Source of the DNA: Roseivirga sp. E12
GTDB taxonomy: Bacteria > Bacteroidota > Bacteroidia > Cytophagales > Cyclobacteriaceae
NCBI RefSeq assembly: GCF_017592825.1
Contig: NZ_JAGFMD010000007.1
Span: 186,001 to 250,000, forward strand
DNA: 64,000 bases
Direction of reading: 5' to 3'
The notes under the pieces: model-generated
The model's database searches: none
The model's input: only the letters and a program-made list of their open reading frames with translations
What the model was told of the DNA's origin: nothing
Shown: positions 2,729-46,442 of the stretch, in pieces
Position numbering within the stretch: the first letter of the stretch is position 1
How the letters are laid out: every line of letters begins with the position of its first letter
Made by a program: the position numbers and the translations under genes

Positions 2729-5700
2729 ATGATCAAGGGTCAAAGAGTAATCATATCAATCCTTTCACTGGTTTTTTTGTGCACAATTTTACGTGCACAG
2801 GATAATCCTCTTGATTCTATTCCTGTCTCCCCAGATGTAAAACAAATTGTAGAAACAGACGATCCGTCAAGTTTCCCTCCTCAATACGGTTTCTTTATTC
2901 AGAACTATCAAGGCAATGGCTTTTCACTAGAGATGAAGAGAGATTTGCTGATGAGTCTCACGAACCTCGATGGACTCAATATTCGTCTGCGCTATGATTT
3001 ACGAGAGTATCTGGAGATACTTCAGCTAGCGAAAGAGAAGCACAGTTTCGATGATGACAAGATGAAAAAGCTGACTTATGCCATGCGTAAGGCTACAGAA
3101 AATTATGACCGGATAAATCTACAGGCTTATATAAAGACCCTACACACTTTCATGCTAGAAAACGCGATTTATAAAGATCGCTATCAGTCCATAACAATGA
3201 CCAATGGGTCCTTCGAAATCTTATTTAATGGAGAGGATATTGAAAGGGAAGAGATGATAGTCTACACCCCTGCAAAGTCTATTTCTGTAGAGGAACTTAA
3301 GGCTAGAGCCCGTGGTGATTACAAAGAACCTGAACCAGAGCCTACAGATAAGATGGAGGAAGAAATACCGTCAATGTACCCTGAAATGGGTGCCGTGATT
3401 CATCTTCAGAAGGGAGACCTGGTTTTTGCCAGTAGCCAAGATACTTTCAAGATTAGCCAGACGGAAGGCTATTTGCTCTTCGATCAGAAACTGTTCAGAG
3501 GGCAAGATGGTATCGTGGATTGGTCCAGTCTCGGAATACCTGCTGATCAAATGAAATCGAGATTGAGTAACTACGAGTTTGGCGTTAATCAGCGTGAGTT
3601 CAAATTTGAAAATGTACTTTTTAGTCAACCGGAAAAAATTGATCAGCCAGTATCAGGAGAGTTGAAGTTGAATATCCGTCCTTCGCGAACCGAACGAGGA
3701 ACTTACCCACGGTTTACCTCATACAATGCGGATACCCCGATTAAAGGGCTAGGTTCCGAGAAGTTGACTTTTACTGGAGGGATCACCTATGAGGGAACGA
3801 ACTTCTATTCTCGATCGGCTTACGAGGAAACCTCTACGGTGACTGGGACGCTTGATGGCAAGATGCGATTTAGGTCTAGAAGTAAAGACTTCGTGTTTGA
3901 TATAGAAGATTCTATTTTGACCTCCGAAGATGCCGAACTGACAATCTACCACCAAGGGGACTCAATCTTTCACCCAGCTATAGAATTTACATATGATTAC
4001 AAAGTTGATCAGATGGAAGTTGAGACCAGTGTGCCAGGCTATAAAACCACCCCGTTCCGGTCGTCATTTTACAACGTGGATATTTCAGGAGATATGCTCA
4101 CCTGGGACTTGAATGCGGACTCTTTAGACCTTACCATTAATTCTGCTCGAGCCGATGTTCCGCTGATGATAGAATCCAAGGATTTCTACAGCAATCAGAA
4201 ATTTCAGGATATGGCCCAGATATTCAGTTTTCACCCACTTATCATGGCGGTGAATATGGCCAAAACCTATGGCGGCTCATTCTATACCAGTCAAATGGCC
4301 AGAGATAAAAACCTAGATGAAGGTCTGGTGAAGAAGACTATGGAACTGTTGATGGCACGGGGTATGGTCAAATATGACAGAACGAGTGGTCTGGTCGAGA
4401 TTTTAGAAAAAGGGTATCACTATGAAGAGTCTGGAAGCAAAAATCCATACTATGACGATATTCTTATCCCATCCATTATTGGTAATGCTCCCAACGCTAC
4501 ATTAAATTTTGAAGATTCAGTACTGACAGTGCGAGGAGTTCAAAGGTTCCTAGTTAGCGATTCGCTCGATGTGGTGATTGCTCCAAGTGATGGGCAAATA
4601 AAGATTTTGAAGAATAGGGATATAGAGTTCAATGGTGCTTTAGATGCGGGTAACTTCCAATTCAATGGTTCAGGCTTCAAATTCAAGTACGATAGCTTCT
4701 ATGTTGACATGGAAAAAATCGACTTCATCAGATTACAGATTGAAGTGGCTAATGGTAAGCGAGAAGCATTGAGTAACCAACTGGTAAGTACATCAGGAAA
4801 AATTCAAATCAATGAGCCGGATAATAAAACGGGACTGAGGTCATTACCGGAGTATCCGATTTTCACCTCATTCGAAAGTGCCAATGTATATTTTGGTGGG
4901 GATGATGTATTGAAAGGAGCTTATGACAGTACAGTGTATTTTGATATCCCACCTTTCGAAATCGACAGTGTAGCTGATGAAGACCCTTCGAAATATGAGT
5001 TTAAAGGAATATTTGCAACCGGGAACATACTTCCTGATTTTGAAGAGGGCCTAAGACTTATGCCAGACAAGAGTTTTGGTTTTGTTCATGCCATACCCGA
5101 TAGCGGCTACAACCTTTATAAGACTGGAGGTCGACTCTTTGGAGAGGTGAAACTAGATAAGCAAGGGATTACCTCACCCGGTCAAATGGATTACTTAACG
5201 GGTAGTTTTGATGTCGAATTGTCAACCCTTTTTCTTGATTCTTTGGTGGCACCCAAAGGGATAAAGGCGGTGCTGCAAGAGGGTTTTGTAGATACTGTTT
5301 CTTATCCATCGATGGAAGTCGAGGCTTATAGTATGAACTGGCTGGCCAAAAGAGATAGCATGGTTTTAACAAACCTGGATATCAACAAACCATTCCAGAT
5401 TTTCAATAAAAAAGCCCAGTTAAAGGGTGAGATGACTTTGCGGAAGGCTGGCCTTTATGGTGCGGGTGAAATGGATATTGATGGTGCCGTACTAATCAGT
5501 GATTCAATGGCTTTCCAGAATCAATCATTTATAGCTTCGCATTCAAGCTTAACACTGAAAGCACCTAACTCTAGAAAACCTATCCTTACGACTACTGATG
5601 CTCGGGTAGACTTTGATGTAGCCAACGAACTTGCCAACATTGGTCCTGAGATAGAAGGAGCTGCAGCCCTAGAATTCCCGTTTGCTCAATTCAAGACGTC

Positions 5701-43043: not shown

Positions 43044-43748
43044 TTATTCTGGCTGAGCGTTGGTGATTAGCTTAAAGCCCGAACCATGTAAGGTCATGAT
43101 TTGAACAGTAGGATCCACTTTAAGGTGCTTGCGCAATTTGGCAATATAGACGTCCATACTTCTGGCATTGAAATAACTGTCATCTCTCCAGATCATTTTC
43201 AGAGCTGTTGAGCGATCCAAAGGCTGATTGACATGTAAACACAGTAACCTTAACAGTTCAGACTCCTTCGAAGTCAATTTTGTCTGATTGCCGTTTTCAA
43301 GAAGTAATTGCTTGTCATAGTCAAAATGGAAGGACCCAAAATCAAAATCTTTTTGATCGGAAAACTGTGGATTCTTCTCCCCAGTTCTCCTGAGAATGGC
43401 TTGAATCCTGAGTAAAAGTTCTTCCATGCTGAAGGGCTTCGTGATATAGTCGTCCGCACCTATTTTGAAACCTTCGATGGTATCTTCCTTCATAGATTTT
43501 GCCGTCAGAAACATGATGGGTGTAACCGAATCGTTCCGTCTAATTTCCTTGGCCATGGAGAAACCATCTTTTTTTGGCAGCATAATATCGAAAAGACATA
43601 AGTCAAAAGGCTCGCTTTTAAAAGCATTTAGCCCCTCTTCTCCATCGCGACAGAGTCGCGTTTCGTACCCTTTCAATGATAAGTATTCGTTCAAAATCTG
43701 ACCCAAGTTCGGATCATCTTCTACCAGTAATAATTTGAAACTAGCCAT
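43044..43748 (-). CDS. OmpR/PhoB-family response regulator
   Basis: 234 residues from the ATG at 43748 (in-frame sequence upstream lies inside the kinase gene). Receiver domain with acidic pocket VEDD and phospho-acceptor Asp54 in CLFDIMLPKKDG, Lys in TKPF; C-terminal winged-helix DNA-binding domain (about 135-228, LTSKESELLRLLCLHVNQPLDRSTALKMIW, DVYIAKLRKHL). Its start overlaps the kinase stop by 8 bp. The candidate binding array at 45352-45388 lies upstream of this operon and suggests self-regulation. Confidence 0.94.
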   Translation of the reverse strand: MASFKLLLVEDDPNLGQILNEYLSLKGYETRLCRDGEEGLNAFKSEPFDLCLFDIMLPKKDGFSMAKEIRRNDSVTPIMFLTAKSMKEDTIEGFKIGADDYITKPFSMEELLLRIQAILRRTGEKNPQFSDQKDFDFGSFHFDYDKQLLLENGNQTKLTSKESELLRLLCLHVNQPLDRSTALKMIWRDDSYFNARSMDVYIAKLRKHLKVDPTVQIMTLHGSGFKLITNAQPE

Positions 43749-45312
43749 AGTTAAAGGGTAAGTAGATTTTAAATGTGCTTCCTTGTCCAACTTCACTTTT
43801 CACATTGATGGTGCCCTGGTGCATTTCCACAATGTCTTTTACGTATGATAAGCCCAATCCAAAACCCTTCACGTCATGGACGTTGCCAGTGGAAACTCGG
43901 TAAAACTTATCGAATATTTTTTCAATTGACTCCTTGGACATGCCAATTCCTTTGTCAGAAATCTTGAGGATTATTCCTGTGGATATATTGTCTGTCCGGA
44001 TGTGAATTTCAGGAGCATCTGGAGAGTATTTGTTGGCATTGTCGAGAAGGTTGTAGATAATGTTAGTAAGGTGTACCTTATCTGCTTCAAGCATGGCGTC
44101 AGAAGCAGATAATTGACTTGTAATTTGCCCTCCTTTCTTTTCTACTTGGATATTGATGTTAACCAATGCCTTTTCAATGATTTCATGGAGATTTGTTGAC
44201 TCGAACTTCAACTTGAAATCCTTCTTATCGAGACTAGCAATCTGGAGTACTTTCTCCACTTGCATGCCCAGTCTCTTGTTTTCATCTCTGATCACCTGAA
44301 CGTAACGGTCTACAATCGCCTTGTTACTCTTGATATCATCATCTTGCAAAGCCTCGGTGGCAAGAGAAACGGTAGCAATGGGGGTTTTGAATTCATGCGT
44401 CATATTATTGACGAAGTCATTCTTTATTTCTGATAACTTCTTTTGTCTTAATATGACCATGATGGCATAGGCAAAACAGGCTATGACAATGATTAATAGA
44501 AGACCTGAGGCTGAAAGAGGAACCAATGCCTGACGCATCAAAAACTTTTTCTGACCTGGGAAGTCAATGGCCAAGTAAAATTCTTTCTGGTTTAGATCCG
44601 TAGGGAAAAGGTTTACCATTAGCTCAGATTTCTTCAAGGCTTCTTTATCACTCTTGTTCTCGATAATTGAAAGCTTAATATCATCAGTGGGCCGATGTAT
44701 GATGCCATAGTTATAGGGTATATCAACCCCTCTGTTTGTGAGTTCTTCTGAAAGGAGCGTATCTAAAACATCAGGGTTAACTCTTGAAAAGAGGTTGTTG
44801 CTACCTAAGAGGTGGTTGAACCAACTTTCTTTCATTAGTTCTACCCGTCTATTCATTTGACGTTCCATATCAATCTGCCTAGCTGGAGAATTACCAAATT
44901 GACTTGAGTTAAAGCCACCTTGCTGCATTATTGACTCAAAGCCAAATTCAAAAACAACTTGACCAGTGGTCTCGTCAACCAATTGAAAGGAACCTTTCAT
45001 GAACTCTTCCGAAGGAGCGATTTCTCCCTGAGGCATGGCCTCTCGATTGCTAACCAAAGTACCCATGGTGTCAATCACATTTCTTCTCGGTCCGGGGCGA
45101 GTGTTTGAAGCCATTCCCCGTTGCAGAAAACTAATGTCGTTTTCTATGGCTAATCTTTGGGTCACCTCATTAAGTGCCTCATTTACATTTTGGCTGAATC
45201 GCTCTTTGTTTACCTTGTTTACCTCGGTAATCCAATAGTACTGAAAGGCCACCAACCCAAGTAGGGCGCAGCTCAGTAAACCTATCAACCAACGAATTCG
45301 CACACGGCTCAT
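43741..45312 (-). CDS. membrane sensor histidine kinase
   Basis: 523 residues from the ATG at 45312. The N-terminal helix (about 8-27) and a second helix (about 265-290, SASGLLLIIVIACFAYAIMVIL) enclose a periplasmic sensor of about 240 residues. Then the HisKA domain with His306 in NNMTHEFKTPIATVS, and the HATPase with NIIYNLLDNANKYS (N box), DKGIGMS (G1) and GFGLGLSYVKDIVEMH (G2). Operon with the response regulator, kinase first. The operon is divergent from the T9SS cargo protein gene; a TACTTTTG box lies immediately before the ATG. Confidence 0.94.
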   Translation of the reverse strand: MSRVRIRWLIGLLSCALLGLVAFQYYWITEVNKVNKERFSQNVNEALNEVTQRLAIENDISFLQRGMASNTRPGPRRNVIDTMGTLVSNREAMPQGEIAPSEEFMKGSFQLVDETTGQVVFEFGFESIMQQGGFNSSQFGNSPARQIDMERQMNRRVELMKESWFNHLLGSNNLFSRVNPDVLDTLLSEELTNRGVDIPYNYGIIHRPTDDIKLSIIENKSDKEALKKSELMVNLFPTDLNQKEFYLAIDFPGQKKFLMRQALVPLSASGLLLIIVIACFAYAIMVILRQKKLSEIKNDFVNNMTHEFKTPIATVSLATEALQDDDIKSNKAIVDRYVQVIRDENKRLGMQVEKVLQIASLDKKDFKLKFESTNLHEIIEKALVNINIQVEKKGGQITSQLSASDAMLEADKVHLTNIIYNLLDNANKYSPDAPEIHIRTDNISTGIILKISDKGIGMSKESIEKIFDKFYRVSTGNVHDVKGFGLGLSYVKDIVEMHQGTINVKSEVGQGSTFKIYLPFNYG

Positions 45313-45351
45313 GCCCAAAAGTACTCTAAATAACTACCTAGAGATGCATGG

Positions 45352-45388
45352 TTAACAATTATTAACATCGTTTAACCACCCTTTAACA
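45352..45388. promoter_or_regulatory. array of four TTAACA/C repeats (candidate response-regulator operator)
   Basis: TTAACA at 45352, TTAACA at 45362, TTAACC at 45372 and TTAACA at 45383, i.e. spaced 10, 10 and 11 bp. Direct repeats at helical spacing are typical of OmpR/PhoB-family regulators, and the hexamer resembles the PhoP-box core. It lies in the divergent region between the two-component operon and the T9SS cargo gene, ending 21 bp upstream of a perfect -7 box. Confidence 0.6.
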
Positions 45389-45409
45389 TCCTTTTGCAGT
45401 ACTTCTAAC

Positions 45410-45417
45410 TAAGTTTG
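45410..45417 (+). promoter_or_regulatory. -7 box of the T9SS cargo gene
   Basis: TAAGTTTG matches TAnnTTTG exactly and lies 17 bases before the ATG at 45435. The position of the -33 element is taken by the last TTAACA repeat, as expected for an activator-dependent promoter. Confidence 0.5.
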
Positions 45418-45434: not shown

Positions 45435-46442
45435 ATGTCAAATATGAATTGGTCAAAACAACTAAAAAAAGCAATTACTCCACTCGGGTTGGCACTCGTC
45501 CTTACTTTGGGAGTGCTCCACAGTGCTAGTGCACAGGATGAAAATATCAAGGAGAGCCAGTCTGTCTCAATTTCCAATACCGAGGATGGCAAAGTCAAAC
45601 TGAAGGTTATTATTAAGAAGGGTAATGACGAAACAACCTTCGAAAAGACCTATGATTCACATGATGAGATGAAGAATGATCCGGATTTGGAGAAATACGG
45701 AATCAATGTCGACTCATTTGGATTTGGAAGAGGGTTTGGGGGTCAGCCTAAGTTCTTTTTCCACAATGGCCCAGGCAAAAGCTTCTGGGATCACGATGAC
45801 TTCGATATGGATATTGACTCACTAAGAAGTAGTATTAGAGGGATGATGCGCGGGTTTGGACCAGGGTCATTCTCTTTCGGTTTTAATGATGACGATACTT
45901 TTGATATGGACTCGCTGATGCAGCGTTTCAGTTTCGGAAATAACAATGGGCGATTTTCTTTCAATGGAGAAGAAATTGAGGATTTAGATTCCTTAAGAGC
46001 CGCTTTGAAAGACAAGTTTGGCAATATGATGTTCGACTTTGATTTTGGAGATGATGATGCTTTCAGCTCATTTAGTTTTGGAGGGGATGATGATGATGTG
46101 AGGGTGATTTCCAGGGTCAAAGTTTTCGTTAGGTCAGCGAGAGATGAAGACAAAGAAGCTGCGGGTACAGACGAAATGGAGGGCTTGGAGTTGAGAGATA
46201 TAAATTTCTACCCAAATCCGAGTGATGGCAGGTTTGATGTAGAACTTGAAACGGGAAATGATTCGGCTATTCAAATATCAATTATTGATCCAGAGGGCAA
46301 TGAAGTTTACAATCGAACAGGAACACCTAGGGATGGCAGATACGATTTTCGTGTTGACCTTAGCGATGAGCGCAAGGGAATCTACATCATGAAAGTAGTT
46401 CAAAACAACAAGGCCCTGACTAAGAGGGTGATTATAGAATAA
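45435..46442 (+). CDS. exported protein with T9SS C-terminal sorting domain
   Basis: 335 residues with a signal peptide (cleaved near ASAQDE). The middle (about 90-230) is compositionally odd: rich in Asp, Phe, Gly and Ser in repeated FGFG, DDD and DSL motifs (SFSFGFNDDDTFDMDSL, FDFDFGDDD), which could bind calcium or form disordered adhesive regions. The last 75 residues are a type A T9SS sorting domain (DINFYPNPSDGRFDVELE, GIYIMKVVQNNKALTKRVIIE), so it should be secreted and attached to the surface. It lies downstream of the TTAACA array, and is a likely target of the adjacent two-component system. A strong terminator follows at 46469. Confidence 0.88.
   Translation: MSNMNWSKQLKKAITPLGLALVLTLGVLHSASAQDENIKESQSVSISNTEDGKVKLKVIIKKGNDETTFEKTYDSHDEMKNDPDLEKYGINVDSFGFGRGFGGQPKFFFHNGPGKSFWDHDDFDMDIDSLRSSIRGMMRGFGPGSFSFGFNDDDTFDMDSLMQRFSFGNNNGRFSFNGEEIEDLDSLRAALKDKFGNMMFDFDFGDDDAFSSFSFGGDDDDVRVISRVKVFVRSARDEDKEAAGTDEMEGLELRDINFYPNPSDGRFDVELETGNDSAIQISIIDPEGNEVYNRTGTPRDGRYDFRVDLSDERKGIYIMKVVQNNKALTKRVIIE

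Follow-up and report, generated by a model that had tools for sequence, protein, structure and literature searches.

What is the function of four evenly phased copies of TTAAC in the gap between a two-component operon and a divergent gene for a secreted protein in Roseivirga sp. E12? Promoters of Bacteroidota differ from those of E. coli, which gives value to the exact geometry of a regulator site in this phylum, and to our knowledge few such sites with a defined geometry relative to a promoter have been described. We analyzed a 64,000-nucleotide stretch of the Roseivirga genome, called the window below; the features under discussion are listed in Table 1.

Table 1. Coordinates of the repeats, promoter boxes and flanking genes in the window.
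Feature	Position	Strand	Remarks
Response regulator, RprY-like	43044..43748	-	Receiver and OmpR-type winged helix; domain and NCBIfam match
Sensor histidine kinase (HisKA, HATPase_c)	43741..45312	-	Likely ATG at 45312; the ORF list begins at TTG 45318
-7 box of kinase-regulator operon, TACTTTTG	45316..45323	-	28 nt from unit 1; 3 nt ahead of kinase ATG
GTTAA unit 1 (TTAAC on plus strand)	45352..45356	-	Nearest to kinase; invariant in eight Roseivirga sequences
GTTAA unit 2	45362..45366	-	10 bp from unit 1; direct reading and alignment of eight Roseivirga sequences
GTTAA unit 3 (TTAACC on plus strand)	45372..45376	-	10 bp from unit 2
GTTAA unit 4	45383..45387	-	11 bp from unit 3; nearest to T9SS gene
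-7 box of T9SS gene, TAAGTTTG	45410..45417	+	22 nt after last TTAAC
Secreted protein, C-terminal T9SS sorting domain (Por_Secre_tail)	45435..46442	+	Probable start ATG 45444, from relatives

A sequence-only reading of this DNA had reported four TTAACA sites. Their positions and their spacing of 10, 10 and 11 bp hold, but only the copies at 45352, 45362 and 45383 read TTAACA; the third, at 45372, reads TTAACC, and the common unit is therefore TTAAC. The longer word TTTAACA occurs exactly in one of the four units (45382 to 45388), and another has TTTAACC. The array is genuine and beyond chance. TTAAC-N5-TTAAC-N5-TTAAC has one match in the window and none in 100 dinucleotide shuffles, and the four-unit pattern has a single match without mismatches; with up to three mismatches allowed, 2 of 100 shuffles gave any match. 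Across the 4.70-Mb genome, the three-unit pattern (N5 or N6) produced three matches at two places, compared to none for the control, so that phased triples occur at just one place other than the window array. Single pairs of TTAAC in the window, with one mismatch, are close to expectation, numbering 8 where shuffles average 5.48.

Loss of the phased repeats in relatives that share this gene order would have spoken against the sequence-only reading, but no such loss was seen: the window and seven relatives of the genus all keep four of four units. In the alignment of these eight sequences (219 columns), the 33 invariant columns lie mostly inside the four repeats, and the TA..TT on the T9SS side is likewise invariant. 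The sequence-only reading had also pointed to weaker half-sites outside the array, ATAACT at 45330 and CTAACT at 45405. The letters are there, but they are not conserved among the eight Roseivirga sequences, and we rejected these sites.

The regulator encoded in the adjoining operon is OmpR-type, as had been claimed: a receiver is combined with a winged helix of the OmpR type. Among NCBIfam models it matches RprY (NF051850) best, at 330.8 bits, which is below the equivalog cutoff of 370 bits. None of 118 genomes of the phylum and one of 14 control genomes reach this cutoff; the Roseivirga genome itself contains 21 scored RprY-like matches. The kinase is 71% identical to that of an uncultured Roseivirga (L007). 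On the other side of the array, the encoded protein carries the C-terminal sorting domain typical of T9SS cargo. No array was seen near 30 RprY-like regulator loci, a result that is uninformative, since the window's own array lies outside the stretch fetched for its locus (L236).

To follow the repeats among relatives, we collected 110 kinase loci, the 80 best of 555 confirmed candidates plus the 30 best of 148 further genomes, a choice that favors nearer relatives. At least two phased units were present in 106 of them when a wide window was used. Removal of two loci without readable upstream DNA and of one duplicate left 107 distinct upstream regions from Cytophagales, Bacteroidales and Saprospiraceae, with a few near-identical rows remaining (L032/L033, L045/L048 and L111/L114). 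GTTAA-N5-GTTAA is found in 100 of the 107, and the N6 form alone in 2 more; the N5 pair occurs in 4 of 5,860 background windows, and dinucleotide shuffling gave a mean of 0.08 of 107. Five regions were scored as pairless, among which a wider window shows phased units in L051 and L085 and an 11-bp pair in L065. The spacing of successive units is 10 bp (134 cases), 11 bp (26) or 20 bp (17), with all other spacings up to 25 bp adding up to 7. It is units 1 and 2 of the window that correspond to the pair kept at the kinase operons of distant relatives.

The kinase-side arrangement is retained where the T9SS gene is missing. At 37 of 101 loci, lysA, whose product is not secreted, is the closest divergent ORF with 150 aa or more, and the arrays there never exceed two units. 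The presence of pair and box at kinase operons, even opposite lysA, points to the two-component operon itself as the conserved target and to the T9SS gene as a second, divergent one. The sequence-only reading had paired the array with the T9SS promoter; this partner stands, but the most conserved one, the kinase-regulator operon on the minus strand, had been overlooked.

On the kinase side, a TAnnTTTG box lies 26 to 29 nt beyond the pair and near the kinase start codon in 94 of the 107 upstream regions. The gap is 27 nt in 61 regions and 28 nt in 28, 89 together. No conserved -33 TTG was found in the spacer between units and box among the relatives' upstream regions. Exactly 4 nt separate the end of the box from an ATG in 47 of the 61 regions of the 27-nt class; in the 28-nt class this distance is 4 nt in 5 of 28 and 7 nt in 12 of 28. 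In Flavobacterium psychrophilum, the available part of a published study places the promoter box at -12 to -5 and describes leaderless mRNAs as rare, 5.5% (PMC9723704). Taken with that position, a box nearly abutting the ATG suggests that the kinase mRNA is leaderless or nearly so in the 27-nt class and in the window. This is less clear in the 28-nt class, because so few of its members have the 4-nt distance.

On the T9SS side, the last TTAACA ends 21 nt ahead of TAAGTTTG, as the sequence-only reading had stated. The box predicts a transcription start at about 45422, which would place the last unit at about -39 to -35, close to the -33 contact site. This agrees with the earlier proposal of an OmpR/PhoB-type array beside the -7 box of the T9SS gene, with the nearest repeat at about the position of the -33 element. 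Of 27 four-copy arrays, 24 have TA..TT at precisely 22 nt beyond the last TTAAC; L093, L100 and L106 do not. As a search pattern, the T9SS-side arrangement gave two matches in the Roseivirga genome compared to none for the control; in a loose form it gave 118 matches in 144 genomes compared to 97 for the control, and therefore cannot serve by itself to find a regulon. OmpR/PhoB-type sites such as the pho box consist of head-to-tail repeats one helical turn apart, located upstream of the promoter box, where they replace the -35/-33 contact. The window has the same elements: direct repeats 10 to 11 bp apart, a winged-helix response regulator encoded nearby, and a fixed distance to each promoter box.

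Copy number of the repeats goes together with the divergent gene. A divergent ORF other than lysA lies near 26 of 30 arrays with three or four units and near 2 of 71 two-unit arrays (26/4/2/69 of 101). The four exceptions among the larger arrays are L042, L054, L055 (spacing 10-10-10) and L093; the last has four units and a lysA match in the locus, yet its divergent ORF was not called. These counts use an ORF of 150 to 399 aa within 150 nt, with lysA excluded by BLAST, a distance that was widened post hoc after three Echinicola loci were found at 134 nt. Our first rule, an ORF of at least 150 aa with its start within 100 nt, gave 24/7/3/68 of 102, and it is these counts that yield a Fisher P value of 4 × 10−14, in which kinship is ignored. 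Clades share the association: in a tree-based comparison, four of six independent pairs support it and the other two are not opposed (P = 0.125). The link between extra units and a divergent gene is thus strong in the raw counts and not significant once relatedness is considered. A sorting domain was detected in 15 of 19 aligned divergent proteins, including that of the window; apart from these, secreted status was judged by eye. L042 and L055, from genomes of Bacteroidales or unplaced Bacteroidetes, have four units, spaced strictly by 10 bp, in the region that separates the kinase operon from a gene that looks LpxC-like by eye and lies 329 to 381 nt away.

Three phased units also accompany a paralogous kinase-regulator pair in this genome (L180, G000:C33:92500-104500). 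Its array, TTAACACT(C/G)G at 5493 to 5517, faces a GLPGLI gene (Porph_ging) and a large gene of outer membrane type (by eye). For this system we used the 9 best of 30 fetched loci, own included, and left out the other 21, which resembled the first kinase. The array is present in all nine, with three units in eight and two in L211; a divergent GLPGLI-like gene (by eye) is likewise present in all nine, and an exact TAnnTTTG stands 11 to 12 nt ahead of the start in six. The two regulators are 47% identical and nearly identical at the C terminus, where they share FNARSMDV(Y/F)I(A/T)KLRK, a stretch that we take to be the recognition helix.

The sequence-only reading had suggested a genome scan for TTAACA pairs. 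The exact form, TTAACA-N4-TTAACA, does stand out, with six sites compared to none for the control, but TTAAC pairs in general are near background (30 versus 19 for the reversed control), and several of the pairs named here may therefore be due to chance. The six are the window site and sites near a GLPGLI gene, moxR, a Spy-like gene with an ECF sigma gene, a winged-helix protein gene and a PadR/ABC-permease region; Pfam supports the GLPGLI, Spy-like, sigma and winged-helix genes, and moxR and the PadR/ABC-permease region were named by eye. TTAAC pairs are also found near genes for a VWA protein, a DegP-like protease and a thioredoxin-like protein, and only the last has the 22-nt geometry. Most other pairs in the genome lack either promoter geometry: the kinase-side form is found only at the kinase operon and its paralogue, and the 22-nt form at one further locus (L127). 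The Spy-like gene (L181) was rejected, as it has the pair but no box at 22 nt (by eye). Among 30 windows upstream of moxR (named by eye, the Roseivirga gene counted), 12 contain a phased pair of varying orientation and place, whereas shuffles averaged 0.1 and never exceeded 3; these windows were the 30 best from 60 genomes searched, and one of them is only 103 nt long.

A wider search of 146 genomes gave 204 three-unit arrays, compared to 69 for the control. These matches are partly coding coincidences and perhaps sites of other regulators. We inspected 20 such stretches, chosen by eye. In L185, L186, L187 and L189, phased GTTAA triples lie within coding sequences resembling undecaprenyl diphosphate synthase (uppS-like, by eye), and such triples inflate the genome-wide counts. 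In L191, L192, L195 and L188, arrays of three to four units stand ahead of genes for MacB-like permeases and ECF sigma factors, identified by Pfam in L192 and L195 and by eye in the other two. As judged by eye, the distance to the box is 21 nt in L188 and 22 nt in the remaining three. A different form, TTAACA-N5-TTAACA with 11-bp spacing, is found upstream of a conserved membrane protein in L300, L301, L303 to L305, L308 to L310, L316 and L325. The membrane protein of L304, the one tested, had no Pfam match, and in that locus a Na/Pi cotransporter gene lies opposite the pair. These 11-bp pairs may represent the Pho box of a different OmpR-type protein.

We put at roughly 80% the probability that the window repeats are a binding array of the adjacent RprY-like OmpR-family regulator, placed in a bidirectional promoter and activating both neighbors. 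Each unit would hold one regulator molecule, all of them aligned head to tail along the same face of the helix and probably joined into two dimers. The pair of units on the kinase side, with 10-bp spacing, would activate the kinase-regulator operon from about -40 to -54, an autoregulation acting on a promoter that has a -7 box, no conserved -33 element and an mRNA probably starting at or beside the ATG. The far pair, with 11-bp spacing, would activate the divergent gene for the T9SS-secreted protein, and the last unit of this pair would extend to the -33 position. The sequence itself shows the array and that it is conserved, the fixed distance to each box, and another, similarly built system in the same genome; binding by the window regulator or a close paralogue, its drive by phosphorylation, and activation are inferred.

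Could the array be bound mainly by another OmpR-type regulator, either the paralogue from the GLPGLI side or a PhoB-like protein? Such cross-regulation appears unlikely. The similar array and shared C-terminal stretch of the paralogous system favor it, as does the 11-bp variant next to a Na/Pi cotransporter gene in a relative. However, the pair accompanies this kinase operon in nearly all upstream regions (100 of 107), and the paralogue arrays mostly share inner bases, AGTGTTAACG(A/T)GTGTTAA or similar, that are missing from the window array (by eye). That the regulator instead represses one or both promoters through the array also seems improbable. The distances between units and boxes are those usual for activators. 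Both -7 boxes have the units on their upstream side, no unit overlaps a predicted start site, and the kinase side retains no -33 TTG. In favor of repression, in the available text on Riemerella anatipestifer PhoP, 34 of 50 direct targets rise and 16 fall upon phoP deletion (PMC9603813). Finally, it is very improbable that the repeats act through DNA shape or as an RNA element or arose by chance; a few phased triples elsewhere, such as the four in uppS-like genes (by eye), are coding coincidences, but the window array is intergenic, is kept while its spacers drift and holds fixed distances to two promoter boxes.

The repeats provide simple rules: two units, 27 to 28 nt and TAnnTTTG, or reversed units, 22 nt and TAnnTT. 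Such rules point to the probable site of action of an RprY-like regulator at its own operon, and to whether this operon also controls a secreted neighbor. Tentatively, GTTAA arrays may represent a widely shared Bacteroidota promoter code of an envelope-stress-like, RprXY-type regulon. Its two-unit core would autoregulate the sensor operon, often leaderless, and extra units would go with a divergently encoded secreted protein that reports on the sensor or feeds back to it. CpxP plays such a feedback role for Cpx.

The closest published word comes from R. anatipestifer PhoP, whose DAP-seq motif has TTTAACA as its most conserved letters (PMC9603813). According to the available text of that study, gel shifts covered eight promoters, including those of phoP itself and moxR, and direct targets include five GLPGLI genes, ABC transporters and a Do-family protease (PMC9603813). 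Another report, in the part available, predicts that the kinase of what appears to be this system is a phosphate-regulon sensor (PMC5399024). The window thus resembles the Riemerella system, as described there, in its core word, in a site at the regulator's own operon, which is bound in Riemerella, and in the moxR, GLPGLI, ABC and protease genes near TTAAC pairs; it differs in the placement of the site, which in the promoter of PhoP itself spans -156 to -121 relative to the start codon, and the text available states neither a repeat spacing nor a promoter geometry (PMC9603813). Because the TTTAACA motif has been published for a Bacteroidota regulator, the kind of site is already known, and the word is published for one species; for the two-promoter geometry, the open literature searched held no match. 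RprXY or RprY of Bacteroides and Porphyromonas are the relatives indicated by the best NCBIfam match, although the window regulator falls below the equivalog cutoff. The available texts on Porphyromonas gingivalis describe an RprY that binds its own promoter and has lost its kinase (PMC3646045, PMC5706477, PMC6032018), unlike the window regulator with its adjacent kinase, and that was interpreted as a chaperone repressor (PMC3646045); the words "motif," "binding site" and "consensus" are absent from the main texts of PMC3646045 and PMC6032018. Compared to OmpR/PhoB-type sites in general, the window is set apart by its Bacteroidota -7 box and by four units that would serve two divergent promoters.
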